Below, piece after piece: positions 2,362-36,502 of a stretch of 36,502 bases of DNA (position 1 is the stretch's first letter; every line of letters begins with the position of its first letter). The stretch comes from Enorma burkinafasonensis (GTDB taxonomy: Bacteria; Actinomycetota; Coriobacteriia; Coriobacteriales; Coriobacteriaceae). The translations under genes and the position numbers were made by a program. The stretch is taken from assembly GCF_902150035.1 (NCBI RefSeq), contig NZ_LR597515.1, positions 1-36,502 on the forward strand. Reading direction: 5' to 3'. The notes beneath the pieces were generated by a model. The model was not told the origin of the DNA. It saw only the letters and a list, made by a program, of their open reading frames with translations, and made no database searches.

Positions 2362-3368
2362 GCCAGCGCCACCCCGCTCTCCCCCAACGCATCGCGCACT
2401 TCCTCTATATTGCCCAAAACCGTGGCGATCAGATCGTCGAGCGACGCGAACTCCACGAGGCCCCGGATGCGCCACAGGAAGGCGAGCGAGATCGCAGACC
2501 CGTAGATGTCGCCGGAAAAGCCGATGAGGTTCGCCTCGAGCGAGGCGGAGGCCGCCCGGTCGCGGAAGGTCGGCGGCTTGCCGACGTTGATGGCCGCGGG
2601 CCAGACCATGCCGTCGACGAGCGCGAGCCCGCCGTAGACGCCCTCGGCGGGCACCTGCAGCTTGGGCGCCACGGCGACGTTTGCCGTGGGGAAGCCCATA
2701 CCCGTCCCCTCTCCGCGCCCGGTGTTCACGGTGCCGCGAAGCATGGGTCGCCTCCCGAGCAGCCGGGTGGCGCGCTCGAGCTCGCCAGCGGCAAGGTGCC
2801 CGCGGATGTGCGTAGACGAGACCACCTCGCCGTCGACGTTCAGAAGCTCGTGCCCCGCAAGGTCGATACCCTCGCCAGCGCACCAGGCCCGCATGACCGG
2901 AACGGTCGAGGCCCCGCGGTACCCGAGCCTGAAGTCGGTGCCGACATGGATGGAGCGCACGTCGCAGGCGGGAAGCAGGATGCGCTTGAAGAACTCCGCG
3001 TGCGTGAGCCGCGAGATCGAGCGGGTGAAAGGGACCACCAGCACCGCATCGACACCGGAGCGGGCGAGCAGCTCGAGGCGGTCGTCTGCCGTGCAGAGCT
3101 TGAGGTCAGGACGGGGCGAAACCACCTCGTCTGGATCGGGCAAGAAGGTCACCGCGACGGAAGCCATGCCGCGCTCGGTGGCCTCGCGCACGGCGGCGTC
3201 GATGAGCGAGCAGTGGCCCAGGTGCACGCCGTCGAAGGCCCCGATCACCGCGACCGAAGGACCGAGGTCTGAGAGCACCCCCGGGCGCCAGCCCTTGACC
3301 GGCGCCGGCACCTCACCGGGGGCGCCGACGATGAAGTCGCGCCTGAGCTCCTCGAGGGCGGGCATCAT
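2358..3368 (-). CDS. ribF: Bifunctional riboflavin kinase / FAD synthetase
   Basis: RibF (336 aa) phosphorylates riboflavin to FMN and then adenylates FMN to FAD in the cytoplasm. The N-terminal nucleotidyltransferase half shows GAFDGVHLGH, the family nucleotide-binding HxGH-type motif, and STHIRGHL near its end. The C-terminal flavokinase domain shows GMGFPTANV and AINVGKPPTF, matching the GxxxPTAN ATP/Mg site. The length is slightly above the usual 305-320 aa. The start at 3368 is an ATG doublet (ATGATG); the first ATG overlaps the truB stop as ATGA, and the ribF stop in turn overlaps the dnaG start, so all three genes are probably translationally coupled. Confidence 0.95.
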   Translation of the reverse strand: MMPALEELRRDFIVGAPGEVPAPVKGWRPGVLSDLGPSVAVIGAFDGVHLGHCSLIDAAVREATERGMASVAVTFLPDPDEVVSPRPDLKLCTADDRLELLARSGVDAVLVVPFTRSISRLTHAEFFKRILLPACDVRSIHVGTDFRLGYRGASTVPVMRAWCAGEGIDLAGHELLNVDGEVVSSTHIRGHLAAGELERATRLLGRRPMLRGTVNTGRGEGTGMGFPTANVAVAPKLQVPAEGVYGGLALVDGMVWPAAINVGKPPTFRDRAASASLEANLIGFSGDIYGSAISLAFLWRIRGLVEFASLDDLIATVLGNIEEVRDALGESGVALA

Positions 3369-4336
3369 CGGAAGCCACCCCCTCGCGAGGCGGCCTCACC
3401 GGATACGCCCTCGATGGGCTGCGGGAAGACGTCCGTGGGCACGAAGCACCCGCCCTCGAGCGACCCCAGGGCGACGAGCCGCGCCGCGCACACGAGGGCG
3501 ACCGGGCGGCCCCCGGGCTCGCCCTCCTCGATACGCTCGAGCGCCGAGGACGGGATTCGCTTGCCGCAGAGCACGTCGGCCATGGCCGCTTCCGCGCAGC
3601 GGACCGGATAGGCGCCGAGCGCCCGCACGGGATCGAGCGCCGCGGCGCGCGCCGCCTCGGCCGTGAGGGCGTCGAGCTCGAGGCAGTCCCCGCGCGTGAC
3701 GGACCCGGACGCGGTGCGCACGAGGCCGGCGAGGTGGGCGGCAGAGCTGAGGGAGCGCCCCAGGTCGCGCGCCAGGGCGCGGATGTAGGTCCCCTTGCTC
3801 ACCGTGAACGACACGGTCCAGATAGGCGACGGGCCCTGCGCGCGGATGGAGATGAGCTCGGCTTCGTGCACGGTGATGGGCCGGGCCTCGAGCTCGACCT
3901 CCTCGCCCGCGCGGGCGCGCGCATACGAGCGGACGCCGTCCACCGATATCGCGGAATAGGACGGCGGCACCTGCATCTGCTCCCCGAGGATGCCCGCGAG
4001 CGCGCCGCGGGCGAACGTCTCGTCGGTAAGCTCGGCGGGAACCTCCGCCTCGCGGGTCACCGCCCCCTCGGCGTCATCGGTCGCGGTCTCGTAACCGAAG
4101 GCGATCTCGGCGAGGTAGCGCTTCGTGTCGAGCGTGAGCCTGCCCAGGAGCCGGGTGGCCTGGCCGATACCTACCACAAGCACCCCGGACGCCATGGGGT
4201 CGAGCGTGCCCGCATGGCCCACCCGGCGCTCGCCGACGGCGCGCCGCACACGGGCGACGACGTCGTGCGAGGTGCATCCGCCGGGCTTATCGATTGCGAT
4301 GAGCGCGTTCAGCTGCGCGACGCGACGCTTAGCCAT
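3365..4336 (-). CDS. truB: tRNA pseudouridine(55) synthase TruB
   Basis: TruB (323 aa) converts U55 of the tRNA T-loop to pseudouridine and also acts as a tRNA folding chaperone. The catalytic core is visible as GHAGTLDPMASGVL, with nucleophile Asp46, preceded by the family start LIAIDKPGGCTSHDVV. Further conserved segments are TKRYLAEIAFG, PPSYSAISVDG and TYIRALARDLG. The C-terminal part resembles the actinobacterial extended PUA-like tail. Its start lies 6 nt after the nrnA stop and its stop overlaps ribF, so it is inside the operon. Confidence 0.96.
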   Translation of the reverse strand: MAKRRVAQLNALIAIDKPGGCTSHDVVARVRRAVGERRVGHAGTLDPMASGVLVVGIGQATRLLGRLTLDTKRYLAEIAFGYETATDDAEGAVTREAEVPAELTDETFARGALAGILGEQMQVPPSYSAISVDGVRSYARARAGEEVELEARPITVHEAELISIRAQGPSPIWTVSFTVSKGTYIRALARDLGRSLSSAAHLAGLVRTASGSVTRGDCLELDALTAEAARAAALDPVRALGAYPVRCAEAAMADVLCGKRIPSSALERIEEGEPGGRPVALVCAARLVALGSLEGGCFVPTDVFPQPIEGVSGEAASRGGGFR

Positions 4337-4342
4337 GGGCCC

Positions 4343-5401
4343 TTACGCCCCGTCGCGCTCGCCCGCGAGCTCCTCGACGTCGCGAACGCAGTCGACGAGC
4401 TCGATGAGCATAGGTAGCGCCGCGCGCAGGGTATCCTCCACGGTGCCCTCGTACGTGAAGCCCGCCGCGGCGGCGTGCCCGCCGCCGTTGAAGGCCGCGG
4501 CGATCCCGGACACGTCGAGCTCGCCCTTGGAGCGCAGGTTGCCGCGCACCTGGCCGTCCTCGATCTCCTTCAGGAAGAGGCAGACCTCGACGCCCATGAC
4601 GGAGCGGACGATGTCCACGAGGCCGTCGCACTCGTCCTGCGACACGCCGTGCTCGGCGAGGTCGGCGGCGCGGGCGTAGCTGTAGGCGACGCGCCCGTCC
4701 GCGACGAGCCGGATGCGGCTCATCACGACGGACTCGAGCTTTAGGTAGTCGAGCCGCTGGCTCTGGTAGACCTCGAGCGAGATGCGCGCGGGGTCGGCGC
4801 CGGCAGCGACCAGCCCGCTCGCCACGCAGAAGCTCTCGGGGTCGGCGTTCTGGTACTGGAAGCGGCCGGTGTCCGTCACGATGCCGCAGAGCAGGTCCGT
4901 GGCGACGCCGGCGTCGATGGTGATGTTCACGAACGAGAGGAACTCGGCGATGAGCACCGACGCGGCAGCCGCGTCCGGCCGGCGCACGGCGATATCGGCG
5001 AACTCCTCGCGGGCGGGATGGTGGTCGAAGCAGACCACCTTGCCCGCGCGGCGCAGGACCTCCTCGCCGTCGGCCAGGCGGTCGAGCACCGGGCAGTCGA
5101 CGGAGATGAAGAGGTCAGGGTCGTCCGCATAGCGGGCCGCCGGCACGAGCTCGTCGGCACCGGCGAGGAAGCGGTAGATGCGCGGCACCGGGGCGTCGTC
5201 GGCGATGAGGAAGGCGATCTCCTTGGTCGGGAAGCGCCCGCGCAGGGCGAGCCCCAACCCCAGAGTCGAGCCCAGGGCGTCGCCGTCGGGCGAGGTGTGC
5301 CCGCAGATGGCGATGGTCTCGGCCTCGTCGATGAGGTCGAGGATGCCCCAGTACTCGTCGGCGTACGCCGGCAGGTCGATACTCGCCGTGTCGCTATCCA
5401 T
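4343..5401 (-). CDS. nrnA: DHH/DHHA1 phosphoesterase, NrnA-type oligoribonuclease / pAp phosphatase
   Basis: The protein (352 aa) belongs to the NrnA family, which degrades very short RNA (nanoRNA), dephosphorylates pAp and in some bacteria hydrolyses cyclic dinucleotide products. Mn-binding motifs are in order: ICGHTSPDGDALGS (His35, Asp39, Asp41), SVDCPV, the DHH signature in VCFDHHPAREE, and the DHHA1 substrate motif FNGGGHAAAAGF near the C terminus. The start at 5401 (MDSDTASIDL) overlaps the end of rbfA by 8 nt and follows a GAGGAG site; a longer in-frame start at 5455 would lie deep inside rbfA and is rejected. nrnA between rbfA and truB is the common arrangement in Gram-positive genomes. 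Exact substrate is inferred from family. Confidence 0.92.
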   Translation of the reverse strand: MDSDTASIDLPAYADEYWGILDLIDEAETIAICGHTSPDGDALGSTLGLGLALRGRFPTKEIAFLIADDAPVPRIYRFLAGADELVPAARYADDPDLFISVDCPVLDRLADGEEVLRRAGKVVCFDHHPAREEFADIAVRRPDAAAASVLIAEFLSFVNITIDAGVATDLLCGIVTDTGRFQYQNADPESFCVASGLVAAGADPARISLEVYQSQRLDYLKLESVVMSRIRLVADGRVAYSYARAADLAEHGVSQDECDGLVDIVRSVMGVEVCLFLKEIEDGQVRGNLRSKGELDVSGIAAAFNGGGHAAAAGFTYEGTVEDTLRAALPMLIELVDCVRDVEELAGERDGA

Positions 5402-5834
5402 CGAGCTCGCCGCCCTCCTCGACATCGGCCTCGCTCCCATCGGCGGAAACGGCATCCGCGATGGGATAGCCCTCCTCGTCCTTCTCGACGCCGATGGTCG
5501 GCGGGACGTTCTCCAGGGCCGCCGCGATGCGCTGCGCCTCGTCGGTGGACTTGTCGATGCGGAAGTCGAGCTCGGGCACGATGCGCCAGTCGAGCGAGCG
5601 CGCGAGCAGGCTGCGGATGCGGCCCTTGGCCGAGGCGAGGGTCTCGAGCACCTCGTCGTAGCGGTCCCCGTCGCACGAGACGAAGATGCGCGCGTACGAG
5701 CGGTCCTGGGTGACCTCGACGCCCGTCAAGGTCACCAGGTCGAGCCTCGGGTCGGCGATCTCGAACAGCAGGATGTAGCCGAGCTTCTCGCGCAGCTGCT
5801 CCGAGAGCCGGCGCGTGACGTTGTTCTGCTTCAC
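5394..5834 (-). CDS. rbfA: 30S ribosome-binding factor A
   Basis: RbfA (146 aa) binds the immature 30S subunit and assists maturation of the 16S rRNA 5' end, notably in the cold. The KH-like fold is indicated by the N-terminal VTRRLSEQLREKLGYIL, the segment IADPRLDLVTLTGVEVTQD and ARIFVSC, followed by the helix RIRSLLARSLDWRIVPEL and the strand ending LDFRIDKS. An acidic Asp/Glu/Gly tail follows. The start is GTG at 5834 with an AAAGG site upstream. It is 15 nt downstream of infB, within the operon, and its last codons overlap nrnA. Confidence 0.94.
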   Translation of the reverse strand: MKQNNVTRRLSEQLREKLGYILLFEIADPRLDLVTLTGVEVTQDRSYARIFVSCDGDRYDEVLETLASAKGRIRSLLARSLDWRIVPELDFRIDKSTDEAQRIAAALENVPPTIGVEKDEEGYPIADAVSADGSEADVEEGGELDG

Positions 5835-5849
5835 GAAGACGACCTTTCG

Positions 5850-8522
5850 CTACTCGGTGCGGGCGACCTCGACGATCTTGTAGGCCTCGAGCTGGTCGCC
5901 CACGTGGACGTCCTGGAAGCGCTCGATGCCCAGACCGCACTCGTACCCGCTCTTGACGGTCTTGACGTCATCCTTGAAGCGGCGCATGGAGGCGAACACG
6001 CCGTCGAACACCACGACGCCGTCGCGCACGACGCGCACGCGGTCGTTGCGCTCGATCTCGCCTTCGGTGACCATGCAGCCGGCGATGACGCCGACCTTGG
6101 GCACGCGGAAGAGCTCGCGGACCTCGGCGATGCCGGTCTGGACCTCCTCCTCCGTGGGCTTGAGCATGCCGATGCGCGCGGCGTCGATGTCCTCGATCGC
6201 CTTGTAGATGATGGAGTACGTCTTGATCTGCACGTTCTCCTTCTCGGCCATGTCGCGGGCCTTGGCCTGCGGGCGCACGCCAAACCCGACGATGATGGCG
6301 TTCGAGGCGGCGGCCAGGATGACGTCGGTCTCGGTGATCGCGCCGACGGCGGAGTGGATGATGTTGATGCGGACCTCGGACTGGTCCATCTTGCCGAGCG
6401 CGTCGGCGAGCGCCTCGATGGAGCCCTGGACGTCGGCCTTGACGACGAGGTTGAGCTCCTTGAGCTCGTTCTCGCTCATCTCGGAGAAGAGGGTCTCGAG
6501 CGTGACGTGCTTGACCTTGTTCTGCTCCTCGATGCGGGCCTTGAGGGCGCGCTCGTCGGCGAGCTTGCGCGCGTCGCGCTCGTCCTCGAAGACGCGGAAC
6601 TCGTCGCCCGCGTTGGGCACCGAGTCGAGACCGAGGATCTCGACGGCGTCGGACGGGCGCGCCTCGTCCTTGTGGTCGCCGTGCTGGTCGAGCATGGCGC
6701 GGACGCGGCCGAAGCTCATACCGGCGACGAGCGCGTCGCCCACGCGGAGCGTACCGCGGTTCACGAGCACCGTGGCCACGGGACCGCGGCCGCGGTCGAG
6801 CTTGGCCTCGATGATGTAGCCCGAGGCGAAGGTGTCGGGGTTGGCCTTGAGCTCGAGAACGTCGGCCTGGAGCAGGATCGTCTCGAGCAGCTCGTCGATG
6901 CCCTCGTGCGTGCGCGCCGAGACGTTGACGAACATGTTCTGGCCGCCCCACTCCTCGGGGATGACGCCGTGCTCGACGAGCTCCTGGCGCACGCGGTCGG
7001 GGTTCGCATCGGGCTTGTCGCACTTGTTGACGGCGACGACGATGGGCACGCCGGCGGCCTTGGAGTGGTTGATGGCCTCGATGGTCTGGGGCATCACGCC
7101 GTCGTCGGCGGCGACGACCAGCACGACGACGTCGGTGATCTTCGCGCCGCGGGCGCGCATGGCCGTGAAAGCCTCGTGGCCGGGCGTGTCGACGAAGGTG
7201 ATCTGGCGGCCGCCGATCTCGACCTGGGAGGCGCCGATGTGCTGCGTGATGCCGCCCGCCTCGTGCGCGGCGATGCCGGTGTGGCGGATGGCGTCGAGCA
7301 GGCTCGTCTTGCCGTGGTCGACGTGTCCCATGACGGTGACCACGGGCGGGCGCGGCTTGAGGTCGGCCGGGTCGTCGTAGAAGGTGAAGGAGTTCTCCTC
7401 CTCGGGGCTGATGATCTTGATCTGGCGCCCGAGGTCGTCGGCGACGAGCTCGACGAGGTCGTTCGACATGGACTGCGTCATGGTGAGCGGGGTTCCGAGC
7501 AGGAACAGGCGCTTGATGATGTCGTTGGCGGGGACGTCCAGGGCCTCGGCGAGCTCGGCGACGGTCACGCCCTCCGAGACGCGCACCGCGTCGAGCTCCT
7601 CGACGCTGATGCCCTGGGCCTTGGCCTGCTCGAGCTTCTGCTCCTCGCGGGCGGCCTCGGCCTCGCGCATGCGCTTCTCCTTGCGCTTGCGGCGGCGTCC
7701 GCCGTCGCCGCGCGACGCCTCCTCGACGGCCATGCGGGCCTCCTCGAGCACGCGCTCGCGGCTGTACTCCTCCGCCTCGCGCGCCATGCGGCTGTAGCGG
7801 TCCTCGTCGGCGTGCTGGGCGCCCTTGCGGCCCTTGCGGCCCTTGCCGGCCTTCTCGGGCGCGGGGACGTCCATGGCGGCCGGCATCGAGGGCGCCTGCG
7901 AGCTGCGGTGCTGATGGCCCGAGCCGGCATGCTCCTCGCGGCGGCCGCCGCGGCGCTCGCCCTTGCGCGCGGGGCGCTCGGCGGCGTTCTCGCTGCGCTT
8001 GGCCTCCTCGGCCTTCTTGCGCTCCTCGAGCACGGTCTCCTGGGCCGCGATCTGGTCGAGCAGCGACCGGAAGCGCGAGCCGGAGTCCGACGCGGGGACG
8101 GCGCGGCGCTTGGCCTCGAGCTCCTCGGCGGCCTTGCGCTCGCGCTCCATGCGCTCGGCCTCGCGGGCGCGCTCTGCCTCCTCGGCGCGGGCGGCCTCCT
8201 CGGCGGCGCGCATGGCGCTCGAGAGCCGGCGCTCCTCCTCGCGACGGGCCTCGACGGCCAGGCGCTCGGCCTCGGCCTCGCGGGCGCGCTCGGCCTCCTC
8301 GGCGGCGGGCGCCTCCTCCTCGGCCTTGCGCTTCGCCTCGACCTCGGCGGCGCGCGCCTCGATAACCGGTGCGAGCTTCTTGCGCACCATGGAGATATAG
8401 GCGTCCTCGAGCGCGGACGACGCCGATTTGACGGGGATCTTCATCTCCGCAAGGTAGCCCATGAGCTCCTTCGAAGTCATCCCGAATTCCTTGGCAAGGC
8501 TTGATACGCGGGTCTTAGCCAT
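5850..8522 (-). CDS. infB: Translation initiation factor IF-2
   Basis: IF-2 (890 aa) is the GTPase that places fMet-tRNA on the 30S subunit and promotes subunit joining. It begins with an IF2_N domain ([20 protein letters not shown]), then a very long charged Glu/Arg/Ala coiled-coil-like region (about residues 60-290), a second IF2_N-like segment ([16 protein letters not shown]), the G domain with G1 [15 protein letters not shown] near residue 396, G3 [15 protein letters not shown] and G4 [10 protein letters not shown], and the C-terminal domains that bind fMet-tRNA. The ATG at 8522 is chosen over a TTG two codons upstream because AGGTAGGTGA is better spaced from it and MAKTRV is the usual start. 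An 83-nt gap separates it from nusA. Confidence 0.96.
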
Positions 8523-29161: not shown

Positions 29162-29731
29162 CTACCCGCACACAACCTGCCGGACGGGGACGTCATGCGC
29201 CTCCACGGCCCCAAGGGCGGCAAGGCTTTCCACGAGCTCGGCGGCGCGGCAGACGCCGATCGAGCGGCCCGCGAAAGAGCCGAGGAAGACGTCGTAGTAC
29301 CCGCCGCCGTACCCGATCCTGAAGCCAGCGCGGTCGAAGGCGAGCCCGGGGACGATGGCGACGTCGCCGGCCCGCCCGCGACCGTCCACGCGGCATGCGG
29401 GGTCTGGCGCGGGCTCCTCGATGCCGAAGGGACCGGGCACGAGGCCCTCGAGGCCGTCGACGGCATACCACTCCAGCGTGCGCGAGCCGGGCACGCAGCG
29501 CGGCAGCGCGACCTTCTTGCCCGCATCCAGGCACCAGGTGATGAGGAGGCTCGTGTCCACCTCCGCACCGAACGAGCGGTAGGTGTAGACGCACGGCGCC
29601 TCCAGCACATGAGGAAGCACCTTGAGGGCAGCGAGGATCGCACGGTCCGCACAGGCCCGCTCTGCGGCGCCCAGCGCGGCACGTGCCGCCTTGAGCTCCC
29701 GGCGCAGATCCTTCTTGGCAGGTGCGCCCAT
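29162..29731 (-). CDS. 5-formyltetrahydrofolate cyclo-ligase (MTHFS / YgfA family)
   Basis: The enzyme (189 aa) converts 5-formyl-THF to 5,10-methenyl-THF using ATP, recycling a stored folate. It shows the basic N-terminal helix KKDLRRELKAARAAL, VYTYRSFGAEVDTSLL, KKVALPRCV, PGPFGIEEP and the hallmark IGYGGGYYDVFL (140-150) that binds substrate phosphate. The start at 29731 has GGGAGG 8 nt upstream; a longer frame would reach 29785. It is likely cotranscribed with folC, and both act on the folate pool. Confidence 0.92.
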   Translation of the reverse strand: MGAPAKKDLRRELKAARAALGAAERACADRAILAALKVLPHVLEAPCVYTYRSFGAEVDTSLLITWCLDAGKKVALPRCVPGSRTLEWYAVDGLEGLVPGPFGIEEPAPDPACRVDGRGRAGDVAIVPGLAFDRAGFRIGYGGGYYDVFLGSFAGRSIGVCRAAELVESLAALGAVEAHDVPVRQVVCG

Positions 29732-29855
29732 ACTGCAAGCCTCCCTCGGAACGAGACGGCGCGGGAACGCGGCGCCTGCCGGCAAGCCGCGATGGCGATG
29801 CGCCCGGTGGCAAGCGGATGGGGTCCCGGCGGGCGCAGGAACCGCTACATAGTAT

Positions 29856-29882
29856 AAGGGGCCCGCATGACGCGGACCCCTT
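29856..29882 (-). terminator. aqpZ terminator hairpin
   Basis: AAGGGGTCCGC and GCGGGCCCCTT form an 11-bp stem with one G-U pair and a 5-nt loop, starting 34 nt after the aquaporin stop. The tail TATACTATG has few T residues and also resembles a -10 element (TATACT) that could serve the cyclo-ligase gene. Confidence 0.65.
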
Positions 29883-29915
29883 GCGAGTCGATGAAGGGCA
29901 TGTGGCAGGCGGCCT

Positions 29916-30629
29916 TTACGCCTCCTGCTGGTAGAACGCCTTGAAGACGCCGAAGAGCACCGCGGCGAGGGCGGCGCCGGCGAGCGGGGCGAAGATGAAG
30001 ACCCAGACCTGCTCGAGGGCGACGGTGCTGCCCTGCGTGGCCATCGCGAGCGCGGGGCCGAAGCTGCGGGCGGGGTTCACCGAGGTTCCCGTCAGGGGGA
30101 TGCCCATGATGTGCACGAACGTGAGCGTGAGGCCGATCACGATGCCGCCGAAGTGGCCGGTCTTGCCGTCGGCGGTCACGCCCAGGATGGTGAGCACGAA
30201 GACGCAGGTCAAGATGACCTCGACGATGAACGCGCCGACCATGGAGATGCCCGTGGTGGAGGCGTCACCATAACCGTTGCAACCGAGCCCGGTCTCGGCC
30301 ACGCCGCCGAGGGCGCCGCACTGGGTCACGATGAGCAGCAGCGCGAACGCGGCCGCGATTCCGCCCACGAACTGGGCGATCCAGTAGGCGTAGAGCTCCT
30401 TCAAGGAGATGCGGCCGTCGATGTAGCAGCCGAAGGTCACGGCCGGGTTGATGTGGCAACCGGAGACGTTGCCGATGGCGAAGGCCATGCAGACGATGGA
30501 CAGGCCGAACGCGAAGGCGATGCCGAGGGTGCCGAGCGTGGAGCCGGCGATGGCGGCACTGCCGCAGCCGAAGAGCGTCAGCGTGAAGGTGCCGAGGGCC
30601 TCGGCGAGGTACTTCTTCCAGGAATCCAA
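29916..30629 (-). CDS. aqpZ: AqpZ-type aquaporin
   Basis: The channel (237 aa) lets water, and perhaps small neutral solutes, cross the membrane. The two hemipore signatures are GCHINPAVTFG (Asn-Pro-Ala 61-63) and TSVNPARSFGPAL (185-187, with selectivity Arg188), within six hydrophobic helices. The short loops and the RSFGPA segment favour an AqpZ-like water channel over GlpF. The start is taken as TTG at 30629 (MDSWKKYLAEALGTF) because AGGAG lies 7 nt upstream and the protein then begins like its family; the open frame upstream is an unconserved Arg-rich run. It is divergent from the solute-binding lipoprotein operon. Confidence 0.92.
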   Translation of the reverse strand: MDSWKKYLAEALGTFTLTLFGCGSAAIAGSTLGTLGIAFAFGLSIVCMAFAIGNVSGCHINPAVTFGCYIDGRISLKELYAYWIAQFVGGIAAAFALLLIVTQCGALGGVAETGLGCNGYGDASTTGISMVGAFIVEVILTCVFVLTILGVTADGKTGHFGGIVIGLTLTFVHIMGIPLTGTSVNPARSFGPALAMATQGSTVALEQVWVFIFAPLAGAALAAVLFGVFKAFYQQEA

Positions 30630-30704
30630 AGGTCTTCTCCTTTTCGTCGTGGCCGCGCGCCGGCCGGCGCACGGGCCGCCCCGGGTGCGGGCGCGAGCCG
30701 GGCC

Positions 30705-30734
30705 ATTGTGAGGGAAGCTCCTCAGGCTTGGCAA
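30705..30734 (-). promoter_or_regulatory. Candidate aqpZ promoter
   Basis: TTGCCA (30734-30729) and CACAAT (30710-30705) are 18 nt apart on the minus strand, each matching four of six consensus positions. The leader would be about 70 nt. Confidence 0.4.
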
Positions 30735-30780
30735 GAAAACGTCATGGTATCAATCATCTTTTGAACCACTTAGAGAAACC

Positions 30781-30847
30781 TTACGAAATCATGGCAATGG
30801 CGTCTCGACTTTCGTAAACTTGCAAACTCGGTGCGCTTCGGGCGCAC
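30781..30847 (+). promoter_or_regulatory. Operator-like inverted repeat, -10 and leader hairpin of the SBP-MscS operon
   Basis: TTACGAAA (30781-30788) is the exact inverse of TTTCGTAA (30810-30817), with 21 bp between. The right arm overlaps a -10-like TAAACT (30815-30820). Just after the predicted start, GTGCGC (30831-30836) and GCGCAC (30842-30847) form a leader hairpin. An operator covering the promoter would explain regulated expression of the lipoprotein and channel genes. Confidence 0.45.
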
Positions 30848-30883
30848 GCTGGATTCACATCGATTCGATGGGGAGAGATGACT

Positions 30884-31741
30884 GTGAACTACACGCGAAG
30901 AGAGTTCGGCAAGCTCGCCTGCTCCTGCGCGGCACTGCCCTTGGCCGCCCTGCTCGGCGGCTGCACCGGTGGCGCCACCGCGAGGTCGGGCAGCTCGGCA
31001 GCTGCAGCAGCACCCTCAAGCGGCGCGCTCCGCGCGGGCGTCCGCGCTGACGTCATGGGCTTCGGCTACCTGAACGAGCACACGGGCAACTACTACGGCC
31101 TCGAGATCGACCTCGTGAACGAGCTCGCGGACCGTCTGGGCTACCAGGACGTCGAGTACGTGACCGTCCTGCCCGAGAACCGCAAGGAGATGCTCACAGG
31201 CGGCAAGATCGACCTCATCGCCGCGTGCTACTCCATCGCCGACACGCGCCTCGAGAACTTCGACTTCTCGCCCGCCTACTACGACGACAAGGTCATCGCC
31301 GTCGTGCAGAACACCTCGATGATCACCACCATCGAGGACATGCGCGGCCGCACCTTCGGCACGATGGCCGGCGCGAACGCGGCGCCTTTGCTCTCCATCA
31401 AGCTCTACGAGATCGGCTTCTCGAACGGCGAGGCGTCCTATCTGGGCGCCGACAACACCGAGGCCGTGTTCGACACGTGGAAGCTCCTGCAGTTCCCCTC
31501 CTACCAGGAGCTCTCCGACGCGCTCGAGGAGGGCGTCGTCGACGCCATGGTGCTCGACGGCGCGATCGCCCAGACCTATATGGACGACAAGCGCACCTAC
31601 ATCGAGGACTTCGTGGTCGCCGAGCAGTCGTTCGGCATCGCCACGCAGAAGGATTCCGACCTGTCGCAGCCCGTCGCCGACGCGGTGCAGGACATGCTCG
31701 ACGAGGGCTTCATCGCCCGGCTCGTCGACAAGTGGGACTAG
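30884..31741 (+). CDS. Extracellular solute-binding lipoprotein (SBP family 3) with Tat-type signal
   Basis: The product (285 aa) has an N-terminal TRREFGK twin-arginine motif (residues 4-10), a short hydrophobic helix and a lipobox ending in Cys27 (LLGGC), so it is probably exported folded and lipid-anchored. The mature part is a family-3 periplasmic-binding fold, the kind that binds amino acids: DVMGFGYLNEHTGNYYGLEIDLVNE, KEMLTGGKIDLIAACYSI, FDFSPAYYDDKVIAV and EEGVVDAMVLDGAIAQTY. No ABC permease or ATPase gene is near. The start is GTG at 30884, with GGGGAG 8 nt upstream; ATG at 30878 is only 2 nt from that site. It is 12 nt upstream of the sensor-channel gene. Ligand unknown. Confidence 0.88.
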   Translation: MNYTRREFGKLACSCAALPLAALLGGCTGGATARSGSSAAAAAPSSGALRAGVRADVMGFGYLNEHTGNYYGLEIDLVNELADRLGYQDVEYVTVLPENRKEMLTGGKIDLIAACYSIADTRLENFDFSPAYYDDKVIAVVQNTSMITTIEDMRGRTFGTMAGANAAPLLSIKLYEIGFSNGEASYLGADNTEAVFDTWKLLQFPSYQELSDALEEGVVDAMVLDGAIAQTYMDDKRTYIEDFVVAEQSFGIATQKDSDLSQPVADAVQDMLDEGFIARLVDKWD

Positions 31742-31753
31742 GAGGCGATGCAT

Positions 31754-34700
31754 ATGTCACGCAGACTCAAGCGTAAGATCGCCCTGCTCATCGCCGTCGT
31801 GGCCGTGAGCATGGCCGTGATGGGCGTGCTCCTCTCCCAGATGCAGGAGCGCCTCTCCATCGCGAGCTACGACACCGAGATGGCCCAGGAGTCCGAGCAG
31901 CTCGTGCAGCTGCTCGAGGACGCCGACGAGGAGACCGCGCAGAACAAGGAGACCTTCGACGCGGTCTACCAGTCCAAGGCGCAGTCCGTCTCGTTCATGG
32001 CCGCCAACAACGTGGGCTTCGAGGCGACCGACGCCAAGATGGCCGAGTACCAGCAGCTGCTGGACGTCGACAACATCATGATCGTCAAGGCCGACGGCAC
32101 CATCGTCGCTCGCGCCGCCGACACGCGCGCCAACTTCAGCTACGCGCGCTTCAACTACCTCCGCGAGTGCCTCAGCACCGGCGAGCCCTCGCGTGCCGTC
32201 GAGATCGAGCTGCCCGATGAGGACTGGCTCATGCGCTACTACGCGGCCAAGATCGACGACGAGACCATGGTCGTTATCGAGCAGAGTCCCGCGGAGCTCC
32301 GCGAGCTCATCGAGACCACCGGCTCGACCGAGAGCGTGCTGCGCAACATCTCCGTCGGCCAGGGCGGCTACGTCTTCGCCCTCTCGGCCCAGACCTATGT
32401 GATCGAGTACCACCCCGACGGGGAGCTCGTCGGCGACGACGCGCTCGATCTGGGTATCGACGTCAACGACCTCGAGGACGGCACCACCTGCTGGATGGAG
32501 CTCGACGGGCAGAGCCTCTACTGCCGCGTCGCGCTCATCGGCGACACGTACTACATCTGCGCCGTGCCCGCCTCCGACATGGCGGCCTCCCGGAACGTCA
32601 CCGTCGCGGTCATCATGTTCGTCTTCTTCGTCGTGATGGCCACCGTCGCCCTCTACGGCATCTTCGTGATGCGCGAGGAGGAGCGCGACGGCGACGTGAA
32701 GAGCCACTTCGTCAAGCTCGGGGCGCTGCGCTACAACCGCACGATCGGGCGGCGCGCGCTCGTGCTCGCGCTCGTGGGCGTGATCGCCATCGTGGGCGTC
32801 TCGTTCTACATGCAGACCCTCTTCGCGCTCTCCTCGCAGTCCGTCGCCAACAAGGAGCGCGCGGCGACCATCGCCGAGACCATCGACCGCACCAACCAGC
32901 GCGCCGACGACCTCACCGAGCAGTACAACGAGCGCTACCTCTCGAAGGCGCGCGTCGCGGCCTACATCCTGGAGCGCAACCCCGAGCTCCTCACCAAGGA
33001 GAAGATGCAGGAGCTCGCCGACGCGCTGCAGATCGTGAACGTGTACCGCTTCGACCTGAACGGCGACATGGTCGCGTCGAACGCGCCCTACGAGCACTTC
33101 TCGATCTCGGACGACCCCGAGGACCAGTCCTACGAGTTCCACCAGCTCCTCCAGGGCGTCGATGAGTTCATCCAGGAACCGATGCACGATGACACCACCG
33201 GCGCGCTCCGCCAGTACATCGGCATCGCCACCTACGACGACGCGGGCTATGTCGACGGCTTCGTGCAGATCGGCATCCGCTCGAGCCGTCTCGAGAACCT
33301 GCTCGCGACCGTCCAGATCGACACCGTGCTCGACGGCGTCCAGGCCGGTGCCGGCGGCTTCGCCTTCGCCATCGACAAGGACGACGAGACCTTCGCGTAC
33401 TATCCCGACGAGATGGTCCAGGGCAAGGCCGCGACCGATATGGGCCTCACCGAGAAGCAGATCAGGGGCGGCTACGACGACTACCTGACCATCGACGGCG
33501 AGACCTACTTCGCCTCCTCGGTCGAGACCGACGACTACTACGTCTACGTCGCCGGCCCCGAGGGCGAGCTCATGAGCCAGCGCGTCCCGCTGACCGTGAC
33601 CACGGCGGGCATCGCCATCGCGTGCATGGTGCTCGTCTACGCCCTCATCGCGCTCGAGCCCGCCGAGGGCACGGTCGCCTCCCGCATCGTCTCCGCCGAC
33701 CGCGGCGACGGGCGCGTCTTTGACGTCGTCACCCCGTCCGGCCGTAAGGCGAAGACCGAGTCGGCCGCGAGCCGCTGGCTCAACCGCTCGCTCGATTGGG
33801 AGTCCATGACGCCCGAGCAGAAGCTCGGCTACGTGCTGCGCATCTTCCTCGGCATCGGCGTCCTCGCCGTCTTCGTTGCCGTGCTCTTCCGCGACCGCAT
33901 CTTCGGCAGCGACTCCGTCTTCGGCTACATCCTCGGCGGCGGCTGGGAGCAGGGCCTCAACATCTTCGCCATCACGGCGAGCATCATGACCGCCTGCGTG
34001 ATCTTCACGGTCTCCTGGGTCCTGCAGAAGATCCTGCACCTGCTCTCCGGCGTGCTCTCGACCCGCGGCGAGACCGTCTGCCGCCTGCTCGTGAGCCTCG
34101 TCAAGTACGGCGCGATCCTGGGCACCCTCTACTGGTGCCTCGCGACCGTGGGCGTCGACACCGCGACGCTGCTTGCCAGCGCCGGCCTGCTCACGCTCGC
34201 CATCAGCTTCGGCGCGAAGGACCTCGTGACCGACCTTCTGTGCGGCCTCTTCATCATCTTCGAGGGCGAGTTCCGCGTGGGCGACACCATCTCGGTGGGC
34301 GCCAATACCGGTACCGTCATGGAGATCGGCATCCGCACGACCAAGATCAACGACGGCAGCGGCAACGTCATCGTGCTGCGCAACAGCGCCATCTCGAACG
34401 TCATCAACCGCACCAAGCTCGACTCTTTCGCCAACGTCGACGTCAACATCACCGTGGGCGAGGACCTGCCCTACATCGAGAACATGCTCAAGCGCGAGCT
34501 CCCCATCATCGCCGAGCGCCAGCCGATGGTCCTCGATGGCCCGTTCTACCGCGGCGTGGTGAACCTCACCGAGAGCACCATGACGCTCCGCATCGTGGCG
34601 CGCTGCTCCGAGAAGAACCGCGCCGCGCTCGAGCGCAACCTCAAGCGCGAGATGCGCCTGCTGCTGACCCGCCACAACATCGCCCCCTACCAGCTCCAGT

Positions 34701-34834
34701 TCGAGCACGAGGACGAGGTCAAGCCCGACAAGGCCAAGGAGGCCGAGGAGGCGCGCGAGCTCAAGGAAGCCGACAGCTTCGTCGAGAGCCAGGACGAGTC
34801 CCTGAGCAAGCTCAAGGGCGAGGACAAGGAGTAG
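31754..34834 (+). CDS. Tandem dCache-sensor / MscS mechanosensitive channel fusion protein
   Basis: This 1026-aa protein combines extracellular sensing with an ion channel. Helix 1 (about 8-30) leads to a first dCache-like domain (31-280: NIMIVKADGTIVARA, then GQGGYVFALSAQTYVIEYHPDGE). Helix 2 (281-306) and helix 3 (334-358) bracket a basic loop, then a second dCache-like domain (359-612: NVYRFDLNGDMVASN, then GAGGFAFAIDKDDETFAYYPDE). Helices follow near 612-634, 690-711, 735-757 and 778-801. The MscS pore helix (802-837, LLASAGLLTLAISFGAKDLV) and beta domain (FRVGDTISVGANTGTVMEIG, VLRNSAISNVINRT) complete it, with a Lys/Glu tail. The ATG at 31754 is 8 nt after AGGAGG. Ligand gating is inference; neighbouring lipoprotein may take part. 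Confidence 0.9.
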   Translation: MSRRLKRKIALLIAVVAVSMAVMGVLLSQMQERLSIASYDTEMAQESEQLVQLLEDADEETAQNKETFDAVYQSKAQSVSFMAANNVGFEATDAKMAEYQQLLDVDNIMIVKADGTIVARAADTRANFSYARFNYLRECLSTGEPSRAVEIELPDEDWLMRYYAAKIDDETMVVIEQSPAELRELIETTGSTESVLRNISVGQGGYVFALSAQTYVIEYHPDGELVGDDALDLGIDVNDLEDGTTCWMELDGQSLYCRVALIGDTYYICAVPASDMAASRNVTVAVIMFVFFVVMATVALYGIFVMREEERDGDVKSHFVKLGALRYNRTIGRRALVLALVGVIAIVGVSFYMQTLFALSSQSVANKERAATIAETIDRTNQRADDLTEQYNERYLSKARVAAYILERNPELLTKEKMQELADALQIVNVYRFDLNGDMVASNAPYEHFSISDDPEDQSYEFHQLLQGVDEFIQEPMHDDTTGALRQYIGIATYDDAGYVDGFVQIGIRSSRLENLLATVQIDTVLDGVQAGAGGFAFAIDKDDETFAYYPDEMVQGKAATDMGLTEKQIRGGYDDYLTIDGETYFASSVETDDYYVYVAGPEGELMSQRVPLTVTTAGIAIACMVLVYALIALEPAEGTVASRIVSADRGDGRVFDVVTPSGRKAKTESAASRWLNRSLDWESMTPEQKLGYVLRIFLGIGVLAVFVAVLFRDRIFGSDSVFGYILGGGWEQGLNIFAITASIMTACVIFTVSWVLQKILHLLSGVLSTRGETVCRLLVSLVKYGAILGTLYWCLATVGVDTATLLASAGLLTLAISFGAKDLVTDLLCGLFIIFEGEFRVGDTISVGANTGTVMEIGIRTTKINDGSGNVIVLRNSAISNVINRTKLDSFANVDVNITVGEDLPYIENMLKRELPIIAERQPMVLDGPFYRGVVNLTESTMTLRIVARCSEKNRAALERNLKREMRLLLTRHNIAPYQLQFEHEDEVKPDKAKEAEEARELKEADSFVESQDESLSKLKGEDKE

Positions 34835-34876
34835 CCTCCCGAACCCGCGCCCCCCGCTGCGCGCCTTACACGCACG

Positions 34877-34924
34877 ACGCCCCGTCTCAGCCGCATAGCG
34901 GATCTGAGACGGGGCGTTTTCGTT
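34877..34924 (+). terminator. Strong terminator of the SBP-MscS operon
   Basis: ACGCCCCGTCTCA (34877-34889) pairs perfectly with TGAGACGGGGCGT (34905-34917) over a 15-nt loop, a 13-bp stem followed by TTTTCGTTTCTTTT. It is 42 nt after the channel stop. Confidence 0.92.
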
Positions 34925-35039
34925 TCTTTTGCGGGAAGCAGCGAGACCGGATGACGCGACGATGCGACGCAACCGGCGGTCCCGCAGCGGCACGCCGCGC
35001 GGCACGGCACTCGTTTTTTTCTCACCAAACGGCCCAATC

Positions 35040-35223
35040 TGGCCGTCCAGTTCAGATATGTACGATTGCTCCCCCGATAAAGCTGGGCTACTGCAGCTGC
35101 AGACTCGCGAATCCTGCGCTTTTGTTATGACGCACGGTTGACCGGCGCTATGATTCGAGCAAGATGGCGTGGCCGGCACCCTTCAACAGCCGTCCAATCG
35201 TACATATCTGAACTGGACGGCCA
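35040..35223. repeat. 184-bp element bounded by 29-bp perfect inverted repeats (MITE-like)
   Basis: The 29 bases at 35040-35068 (starting TGGCCGTCCAGTTCAG, ending ATGTACGATTG) are repeated in exact inverse at 35195-35223. The element therefore runs TG...CA, like many transposon ends. The 126-bp interior carries no transposase and no convincing ORF; it contains a 12-bp palindrome CTGCAGCTGCAG (35091-35102) and a TATGAT. I find no obvious target duplication in the flanks. It could be a miniature transposable element, or a long regulatory hairpin between the operon and the LysR gene. Confidence 0.6.
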
Positions 35224-35324
35224 AAAATGAGATGTTGGAAAGGATTTCTACGCGCGGCATAGGACCCCGAGCGCACCTCTCTCATCTCAGTGCCCCGTAG
35301 ACTCCTTGGAAATCCAAGGGGCGA
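35224..35324 (-). other. Downstream region of the LysR gene with a weak terminator hairpin
   Basis: CCTTGG (35304-35309) and CCAAGG (35314-35319) form a 6-bp stem with a 4-nt loop beginning 6 nt after the LysR stop; GCCCC (35292-35296) can alternatively pair with GGGGC (35318-35322). No U-tract follows. Together with the 184-bp element and operon terminator, the 490-bp gap from 34835 to 35324 shows no gene. Confidence 0.35.
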
Positions 35325-36239
35325 TTAGGACCCGATAACTCCCATGAGCTGGGAGAACTCCTTGAGCATGAAGCGCTCGAAGATGCGGTAGCACTCGGTC
35401 TTCTGGTTCTTGATGGTGATGGCGCACACCGGGATCGCCAGGTTGTCGGGCGCCTTGAAGCGCACCATCCCCCACTCGGGAGAGGTCGAGAACGCCTCGA
35501 TGCCGACGCCCATCGCGAAGCCGTTCTCGCGGTTGAGCAGGCGCTCGAACTCCTCGCCGTTCTGGACGGGAATGATCGGCGACTTCATGCCGTGCTTGCG
35601 GTAGATGTTGACGATGGTCTCGTTGAAGTCGTCGAGCCCGATGATGTAGCCCGTCGGGTACGGCTCGAGGTCCGCGAGCGTGACGCCGCCCTTGGCGTAG
35701 AGCGGATGCGCCTTGGGCAGGAAGACCCCGGCCGGAAGCGTGCCCACCGGCAGGCAGTCGCATGCCGGGTTGTCGTAGGCGCCCACCGTGAGCAGCACGT
35801 CGAGGCTCCCGTCATAGAGCTGGCCGAGCGCCTGGTGCCCCGAGCAGAGGCCCAGGCTCACCTTCATGTTGAGCTGGCGCCCCAGGAATCGCTCGAGGCC
35901 GGTGCAGACGGCCTGCCAGTTGTTGAAATGCGGGACCGTGAGCAGGACCCGCAGGCCCTCGTGGCCCTCGGGCGAGCCCGCGCGATGGCCCTCGGCGTAG
36001 CGCTCGATCCGATCGATCCCCTCGAGGGTGTTCTGGACGAGCGGCTGCAGGCCCGAGCAGAAGGACGTGGGCGTGGCGCCCTTGCTGTCGCGGATGAACA
36101 GGGTGTCCCCGAGCTCGGACTCGAGCTCGCCGAGCGCCTTTGAGACGGCCTGGACGGACACGTGCTCCGATCGCGCGGCACCCGAGAAGCTCCCGGATCG
36201 CAGCACGGCACGTACGTATCGAAGTTGTTGGATGTTCAC
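35325..36239 (-). CDS. LysR-type transcriptional regulator
   Basis: The protein (304 aa) has the LysR winged helix-turn-helix at residues 1-60 (MNIQQLRYVRAVLRSGSFSGAARSE in two parts, then VSVQAVSKALGELESELGDTLFIR). Two substrate-binding subdomains follow (about 92-300), with LRVLLTVPHFNNWQ and GSLDVLLTVGAYDN. Such regulators bind an effector and often control the divergently transcribed neighbour plus their own gene. The start is GTG at 36239, with AGGTGG 6 nt upstream. A rightward gene begins at 36494, so the divergent layout fits. Effector and targets cannot be named. Confidence 0.9.
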   Translation of the reverse strand: MNIQQLRYVRAVLRSGSFSGAARSEHVSVQAVSKALGELESELGDTLFIRDSKGATPTSFCSGLQPLVQNTLEGIDRIERYAEGHRAGSPEGHEGLRVLLTVPHFNNWQAVCTGLERFLGRQLNMKVSLGLCSGHQALGQLYDGSLDVLLTVGAYDNPACDCLPVGTLPAGVFLPKAHPLYAKGGVTLADLEPYPTGYIIGLDDFNETIVNIYRKHGMKSPIIPVQNGEEFERLLNRENGFAMGVGIEAFSTSPEWGMVRFKAPDNLAIPVCAITIKNQKTECYRIFERFMLKEFSQLMGVIGS

Positions 36240-36276
36240 CCGGTACCACCTAGCGGATACGCCTGAATCAAAACGG

Positions 36277-36350
36277 GCGAATCACTCAGAGATTCGCTTC
36301 CCTGAGATTCATTATACAAATGAGCGCTATCGGGTCCCGTCGATGACGGG
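36277..36350 (-). promoter_or_regulatory. LysR gene promoter with symmetric site on the -10 element
   Basis: A perfect TATAAT (36316-36311, minus strand) lies inside TCATT-ATACA-AATGA (36309-36323), an inverted repeat of the T-N11-A kind bound by LysR proteins, so autorepression is plausible. Flanking stems are GCGAATC/GATTCGC (36277-36283, 36291-36297) in the leader and CCCGTC/GACGGG (36336-36341, 36345-36350) over the -35 region, which itself is weak. Confidence 0.55.
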
Positions 36351-36403
36351 CCGTCAACTCCGCTTTGAATCATTCCCTTGATTATCAACTTTATCCGAAC
36401 ACC

Positions 36404-36441
36404 TCCCACATTCATCCGCACATGTGCGGATGAATGTGGGA
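36404..36441. repeat. 38-bp perfect palindrome in the divergent LysR intergenic region
   Basis: The left half (TCCCACATTCATCCGCACA, 36404-36422) is repeated in exact inverse with no spacer at 36423-36441, centred on ACATGT. It lies about 52 bp before the rightward start at 36494. There is no U-tract after it, so it looks more like an operator or cruciform than a terminator. Confidence 0.75.
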
Positions 36442-36493
36442 ACCCGATACCCTGAGGGCCGGATCGGCCGGCCCCGGGAGATCGGAGGACGGC

Positions 36494-36502
36494 ATGTCCG
36501 GA
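36494..36502 (+). CDS. Start of an unidentified rightward gene (partial, 3' end outside window)
   Basis: ATG TCC GGA at the window edge follows CGGAGGA with 4-5 nt spacing, a strong ribosome-binding site. Only Met-Ser-Gly is visible, so nothing can be said about the product. It is divergent from the LysR gene and preceded by the 38-bp palindrome, which makes it the likely target of that regulator. Confidence 0.5.

Follow-up and report, generated by a model that had tools for sequence, protein, structure and literature searches.

The closest described systems place the gene for a solute-binding protein (SBP) next to that of a membrane receptor. NspS-MbaA, of Vibrio cholerae and Sinorhizobium, combines an adjacent SBP gene with a membrane receptor carrying an extracytoplasmic sensor, and docking of the liganded SBP on the receptor, which alters the receptor's output, is established (PMC9993111); in the GlnH-GlnX-PknG system of mycobacteria, docking of GlnH on GlnX is a proposed model (PMC6069109). 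Here we analyse a stretch of 36,502 nucleotides from Enorma burkinafasonensis (assembly GCF_902150035.1, contig NZ_LR597515.1, positions 1 to 36,502 of the forward strand), hereafter the window, in which an SBP lipoprotein gene directly precedes the gene for an MscS-type channel with two dCache modules. Gene linkage gives good support to a single dedicated system comprising both genes, and we lean towards reading the two-gene operon as encoding an MscS-type channel tuned by a chemical signal through a separate receptor protein.

The locus shares with NspS-MbaA its gene arrangement and extracytoplasmic sensing, and differs from it in both partners, because NspS-MbaA pairs a PotD-like polyamine SBP with a GGDEF-EAL enzyme of cyclic di-GMP metabolism; no kinase or cyclase/phosphodiesterase output of that kind was encountered here, the output being an MscS channel. 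GlnH, like the lipoprotein of the window, belongs to the SBP_bac_3 lipoproteins of actinobacteria and has an Asp/Glu pocket of the same type, and the membrane partner encoded in its operon likewise has two extracellular sensor modules, but those of GlnX are four-helix bundles, the protein is poreless and the output is a protein kinase (PMC6069109). Members of the MscS superfamily, both small MscS and MscK, MscM and YbiO, have in common the pore helix, beta domain and alpha/beta cap, and MscK, MscM and YbiO also have long N-terminal extensions; what sets the present channel apart is that its extension consists of two dCache modules bracketed by transmembrane (TM) helices, and that a dedicated lipoprotein gene lies 5' of it.

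The lipoprotein and channel genes are inherited as a pair

The operon and its parts, all on the plus strand, are as follows:

30884..31741, gene for the SBP_bac_3 lipoprotein, with an RR signal and a lipobox; predicted Asp/Glu-type receptor
31754..34834, gene for the double-dCache MscS channel, 1026 residues; alternative ATG at 31748
31838..32581, Cache module 1 with its stalk helix, residues 29-276; extracellular by topology; from AlphaFold2 and Foldseek
32822..33562, Cache module 2 with its stalk helix, about residues 357-603; extracellular by topology; from Pfam dCache_1 and fold
33827..34687, MscS core (an extra TM helix, the TM1-TM3 pore, and the beta and alpha/beta domains), about residues 692-978; from Pfam and structure matches
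34877..34930, rho-independent-type terminator 3' of the operon, with a perfect 14-bp stem (34877-34917) and a T-rich tail

Among 298 Coriobacteriia genomes, searched at E <= 1e-20 for the channel and E <= 1e-45 for the SBP, 43 contained channel matches, comprising 39 orthologues, three divergent double-Cache channels (G190, G234 and G278) and one plain small MscS (G221). The SBP was present in 40: the 39 genomes with an orthologous channel, in all of which (39/39) it lies directly upstream, usually at a gap of 9-32 nt, and a single one of the 259 channel-less genomes (G227), where the SBP copy is broken. The Fisher p for this co-occurrence is 3.5e-48 over the 298 genomes, uncorrected for kinship; because the genomes are related, it is descriptive and carries no significance level. 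A scan of 84,980 GTDB species genomes, with the sensor alignment as query, returned 60 loci from Coriobacteriia, Lachnospiraceae and other Clostridia, and Bifidobacterium panos (some of these taxon names come from metagenome bins and are possibly wrong). The SBP gene is directly upstream of the channel gene in 58 of the 60, the exceptions (L131 and L132) being broken channel genes, and the pair is retained down to channel identities of 27-34% (L057, L202, L205 and L206). The pairing put forward in the original prediction thus extends far beyond the window, and its further claim of a self-contained, dedicated system is well supported through gene linkage.

Broken copies of the SBP, the channel or both, with stops or truncations, occur in several genomes (G120, G160, G227, G262, G282, L131, L132 and L134), and the system has therefore been lost repeatedly. 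Long open frames at some loci, considered as natural SBP-channel fusions, are mere stop-free stretches, and zero fusions were found. Distances of the SBP correlate with those of channel parts at 0.70-0.77; we discarded this as evidence of contact, since such values are expected from co-inheritance alone.

The lipoprotein had also been described as lacking a permease of the ATP-binding cassette (ABC) type, and none adjoins the pair. No recurrent amino-acid ABC permease or ATPase gene lies beside it in the neighbourhoods of the Coriobacteriia and GTDB loci, and the ABC-ATPase motifs near the pair in some Eggerthellaceae belong to exporter-like proteins of ~600 residues. In both genome sets the SBP and channel genes are almost always adjacent and no permease lies beside them, contrary to the refuting case named in the original prediction. 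The E. burkinafasonensis genome does encode three amino-acid permeases over the cut-off, and these adjoin other SBPs (C22:9072 and C22:162812).

At the edge of the family, a scan of Lachnospiraceae gave matches in 45/397 genomes, many of them small MscS, and also channels of 930-1170 residues at 26-43% identity. Among these larger channels and closer relatives of theirs, L196-L198, L202, L205 and L206 retain the SBP. L199 and L207-L215 have neither an SBP nor an SBP_bac_3 kinase as neighbour, L207-L215 being divergent Lachnospiraceae sensor-MscS channels of 930-1150 residues beside varied genes. Since L199-L201 and L207-L215 have no SBP gene, the sensor-MscS architecture is older or broader than the SBP pairing. 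L200 and L201 each encode a divergent sensor-type MscS channel immediately preceded by a hybrid histidine kinase with an SBP_bac_3 sensor (3608-6298 and 3018-5924, respectively), a further link between SBP_bac_3 sensing and channels of this kind.

Two dCache modules precede an MscS pore

The C-terminal part of the channel is of MscS type, as evidenced by Pfam matches above their cut-offs to MS_channel_2nd (E 2.9e-14, 53.3 bits against 20.2) and MS_channel_1st (E 7e-7, 29.5 bits against 23.1), which together cover residues 782-887. An AlphaFold2 model of the full channel (36 sequences; mean predicted local distance difference test score, pLDDT, 76; predicted template-modelling score 0.52) matched MscS structures at residues ~720-986 and dCache structures at 357-610. 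The MscS matches included 3t9n (Foldseek E 1.2e-12) and 3udc (VIA Z 14.7 over 249 residues, root-mean-square deviation [rmsd] 16.2), and E. coli MscS, YbiO and MscK were also among the fold matches. The pore helix and the beta domain, the latter present in 36/36 channel homologues, are the best-conserved parts of the protein. Pfam listed no match to a cytoplasmic cyclic-nucleotide-binding domain of the bCNG type at E up to 10.

Evidence for the two sensor modules comes from different sources. Cache2 matches Pfam dCache_1 at residues 370-597 (E 2.3e-8), although its 34.3 bits are below the Pfam gathering score of 45, and 35/36 channel homologues match dCache_1 at 0.01 or better; its fold, two-lobed and PAS-like with a long helix, resembles 4wy9, 6mni and 6iop at Z ~12 over ~219 residues. 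Cache1 is matched by Pfam in the window sequence to dCache_3 alone, insignificantly (E 0.038), and was recognised by its fold: an AlphaFold2 model of residues 29-276 (60 sequences, pLDDT 86) best matched PscC (6mni; E 2.4e-10, Z 15.0, 206 residues, rmsd 9.1), followed by Mlp24, PctA and Tlp3, the top-of-list Foldseek matches all being dCache domains. The modules resemble one another at 24% by BLAST, and when PDB sequences were searched with the sensor alignment, the matches were all weak and mostly unrelated. Hydropathy places TM helices at ~9-27, 282-300, 335-353, 615-633, 694-712 and 735-761, with the pore helices thereafter; the pairs 9-27/282-300 and 335-353/615-633 bracket Cache1 and Cache2, and both modules would therefore be extracellular, provided that the N terminus is inside. 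The proposed architecture of two TM-bracketed dCache-like modules ahead of an MscS pore and beta domain thus holds, with Cache matches in both of the intervals originally assigned to them (by fold in residues 31-280, by Pfam and fold in 359-612).

Amino-acid-sensing dCache domains (dCache_1AA) carry the motif YxxxRxWY ... Y ... D (PMC9901441). YxxxRxWY has zero matches in either module of the window channel, and among the 60 channels we found one loose match (L123), in the second TM region outside the modules. Because the motif is not conserved, ligand sensing may be delegated from the Cache modules to the SBP. Invariant residues of Cache1 are R132, N134, R161, Y162 and Y163.

The lipoprotein has an Asp/Glu-type pocket

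The SBP belongs to family 3, as originally assigned (Pfam SBP_bac_3, E 7.5e-23, 81.2 bits against a cut-off of 26.4), and bears the lipobox LLGGC, whose Cys is invariant in homologues. The accompanying description of its signal as of the twin-arginine (Tat) type stands for the window, where an RR motif is present, and mainly for Coriobacteriaceae and Atopobiaceae, but does not carry over to many SBPs of Eggerthellaceae and Lachnospiraceae, which have Sec-type lipoprotein signals.

The closest PDB sequence is PEB1a, an Asp/Glu binder of C. jejuni. In M. tuberculosis GlnH, the alpha groups of Asp are bound by Ser164/Arg169/Asp250 and its side chain by Arg147/Thr162/Trp232, of which the side-chain set is conserved among SBPs sharing this specificity (PMC6069109). 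By constant spacing (a register inferred from offsets rather than a printed alignment), the equivalents here are S119/R124/D227 for the alpha groups and R102/C117/Y209 for the side chain, with Thr replaced by Cys (117) and Trp by Tyr (209); residue numbers refer throughout to the 287-residue form counted from ATG 30878. Across 56 SBPs, R56, R102, R124, Y209 and D227 are invariant, S119 is present in 55, and position 117 is Cys in 47, Thr in seven and Ala in two. For alpha groups and side-chain carboxylate the pocket matches the Asp/Glu residue set of GlnH and PEB1a, and an acidic amino acid (Asp or Glu) is therefore predicted as the ligand. In the same genome the ABC-linked SBP C22:162812 has the same pocket set, but Lys, Thr and Thr at positions 56, 117 and 119, and SBP C22:9072 is without R102. 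Taken together, these comparisons suggest that the lipoprotein probably derives from a Glu/Asp receptor and has kept its manner of binding.

An aquaporin gene recurs beside the pair

Upstream of the operon the window contains two further features:

29916..30629, minus strand, AqpZ-type aquaporin gene, divergent from the SBP gene; probable TTG start at 30629, reading frame open to 30734
30630..30883, no strand, divergent intergenic region between the aquaporin and SBP genes, which must contain the promoter or promoters

The aquaporin matches Pfam MIP at 1.6e-49 and NCBIfam aquaporin Z at E 1.1e-63, just below the cut-off (aquaglyceroporin, 2e-11). AqpZ is a divergent neighbour of the pair in Coriobacteriaceae and Atopobiaceae; it lies upstream on the same strand at L057 and in Lachnospiraceae (L122, L124-L126, L128 and L129), downstream on the same strand at L135 and L196, also adjoins the pair at L133, and in Bifidobacterium is two to three kb away. 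Genome-wide, 32/39 channel genomes encode AqpZ, against 37/259 of the others. The repeated re-formation of this linkage, in varied gene arrangements and across phyla, is an argument for a common osmotic function; the aquaporin is likely a third member of the system, its recurrence pointing to water or turgor control. Both this linkage and the acidic-amino-acid pocket are additions to the original prediction. A small MscS and MscL are also encoded in the E. burkinafasonensis genome, and in all four further genomes that were checked a single small MscS accompanies the large channel, which is therefore a specialised addition.

Gene starts, signals and other elements

The SBP reading frame spans 30878-31741 on the plus strand and could begin at ATG 30878 (287 residues), but GTG 30884 is the better start because homologues begin at its position (MNLTRR...), in agreement with the earlier choice. 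Of the channel's candidate ATGs, 31748 and 31754, the latter matches homologue starts and ribosome-site spacing, and with it the 12-nt gap and the length of 1026 residues stand as first given. The two genes share a reading frame, with a TAG between them; a pseudo-complex made by reading through this stop was rejected as a model, because its linker of six residues would hold the receptor at TM1's cytoplasmic end. The terminator assigned to the operon is likewise present, whereas the operator-like repeat described 5' of it is short and unconserved in five relatives; no conserved operator was found in 30630-30883. Rfam gave no matches within 29500-36502.

Downstream of the operon there is one further gene:

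35325-36239, minus strand, LysR regulator gene, convergent to the channel gene

LysR is a frequent neighbour of the pair in Coriobacteriaceae, but its position and identity vary, and we do not count it as part of the system. Upstream of the LysR gene is a perfect 38-nt palindrome (TCCCACATTCATCCGCACATGTGCGGATGAATGTGGGA, 36404-36441). A perfect 29-nt inverted repeat (35040-35223, arms 155 nt apart start to start) recurs in the genome on C17, C19 and C41 (exactly 155 nt) and on C4 (175), with conserved arms and diverged middles; it has zero Rfam matches and is a candidate regulatory element or one resembling a miniature inverted-repeat transposable element.

Discussion

In the arrangement that we favour, the lipoprotein would be anchored on the outside of the membrane and would close on an acidic amino acid, predicted to be Asp or Glu; once liganded, it would dock on at least one of the channel's two dCache modules. 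The modules would relay the signal via the long stalk and the TM helices to the MscS pore, which would respond with a shifted opening tension or with outright opening and might pass ions and small osmolytes, possibly glutamate, thereby matching turgor or the flow of solutes and water to extracellular amino acids. In chemoreceptors and kinases, signals are usually transduced by dCache modules of this kind, carried on long stalk helices near TM helices. Docking, the direction of the gating effect, the cargo of the pore and the physiological role are the parts that we infer. On the most economical reading, Asp/Glu would be sensed by the SBP, and the Cache modules, responding to its liganded form, would determine the tension at which the pore opens; ligand gating of the channel through the SBP is our best reading. 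Its fullest version, a two-protein bacterial glutamate/aspartate-gated channel in gut bacteria of two phyla, in which the SBP opens an MscS-type pore via dCache transducers and acts with the aquaporin on cell water, is advanced tentatively, as possible rather than probable.

Several observations weigh against ligand gating through the SBP. Any shared function would equally yield co-inheritance of SBP and channel. Some related double-dCache MscS channels (L056, L058 and L207-L215) have no SBP gene beside theirs, and the channel architecture therefore needs no SBP. The missing amino-acid motif leaves another ligand of the Cache modules possible; the Glu/Asp-type ABC SBP of the same genome shares the pocket residues, so that the pocket alone is no argument for signalling; and the paired SBP at L202 (400-1158), whose gene overlaps that of a divergent channel, is without R102, R124 and D227, and its ligand may have changed or been lost.

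The Cache modules might instead bind small ligands of their own and gate the channel directly, with the SBP as a secondary modulator or ligand buffer. dCache domains usually bind ligands themselves, the invariant residues of Cache1 could form a pocket, and there are double-dCache MscS channels that have no SBP; the amino-acid motif is missing, however, and the conservation of the SBP is stricter than would be required of an accessory, and we regard this alternative as unlikely. Somewhat less likely still is co-regulation only, with the channel acting as an osmotic valve in its own right and the SBP supplying an amino-acid ABC transporter that is not linked to it. ABC transport is the normal role of SBP_bac_3 proteins, one ABC system of the Glu/Asp type in the genome shares the pocket residues, and AqpZ linkage is compatible with a purely osmotic operon; yet each amino-acid permease over the cut-off has an adjacent SBP of its own, the 298 genomes include neither an intact SBP lacking the channel nor an orthologous channel lacking the SBP, and MscL and a small MscS are already encoded in the genome.

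It is improbable, too, that the SBP is a transport partner without signalling, passing its amino acid to the pore or recapturing leaked glutamate, as might be suggested by its glutamate/aspartate-type site and by glutamate export through MscS-type channels such as MscCG (PMC6110860, PMC12541555). This would leave two large dCache modules without a role. MscS pores are, moreover, wide and weakly selective, and we know of no SBP-dependent passive channel. That the large protein is a receptor whose MscS part is a scaffold or signalling platform, and not a working channel, is very improbable, for although the MscS superfamily is diverse and conductance is unproven for some members, conservation in this protein is highest in the pore helix and beta domain, which match solved MscS channels.

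Ligand gating through the SBP is directly testable, given a compact system, a sharp Asp/Glu prediction and cultured hosts: the system occurs in cultured gut bacteria, namely Collinsella, Enorma, Gordonibacter, Eggerthella and Bifidobacterium panos.

Each part of the system is of a known kind, the whole being a variant of the MscS superfamily that takes up the principle of SBP-dependent receptors; the literature searched contained no such combination. A Cache census lists as outputs kinases, cyclases, phosphatases, serine/threonine kinases and transcription factors; its ion-channel entries are calcium-channel accessory domains only, with zero prokaryotic channel outputs (PMC4822843). No description of MscS joined to a Cache domain was found in that literature, the single match being a false one on stem cells, and in it subscription journals are poorly covered, so that a prior description is possible; were gating shown, a stronger claim of novelty would be deserved. 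The alpha2-delta subunits of calcium channels also tie two dCache domains to an ion channel, but they are accessory subunits of an unrelated channel and have the canonical amino-acid motif that is absent here (PMC9901441). Ionotropic glutamate receptors and GluR0 couple the opening of an ion channel to an SBP-type ligand-binding fold, and the SBP weakly matches Pfam Lig_chan-Glu_bd (E 0.006); the likeness is one of analogy only, as they carry the binding domain in one protein with a K+-channel-like pore, into which it is fused, whereas here the proteins are separate and the pore is of MscS type. If ligand gating through the SBP is true, the best-studied family of pressure-gated channels would gain an extracellular chemical input via a separate receptor, and bacteria would have an independent counterpart to glutamate receptors, with the same binding fold and a different pore.

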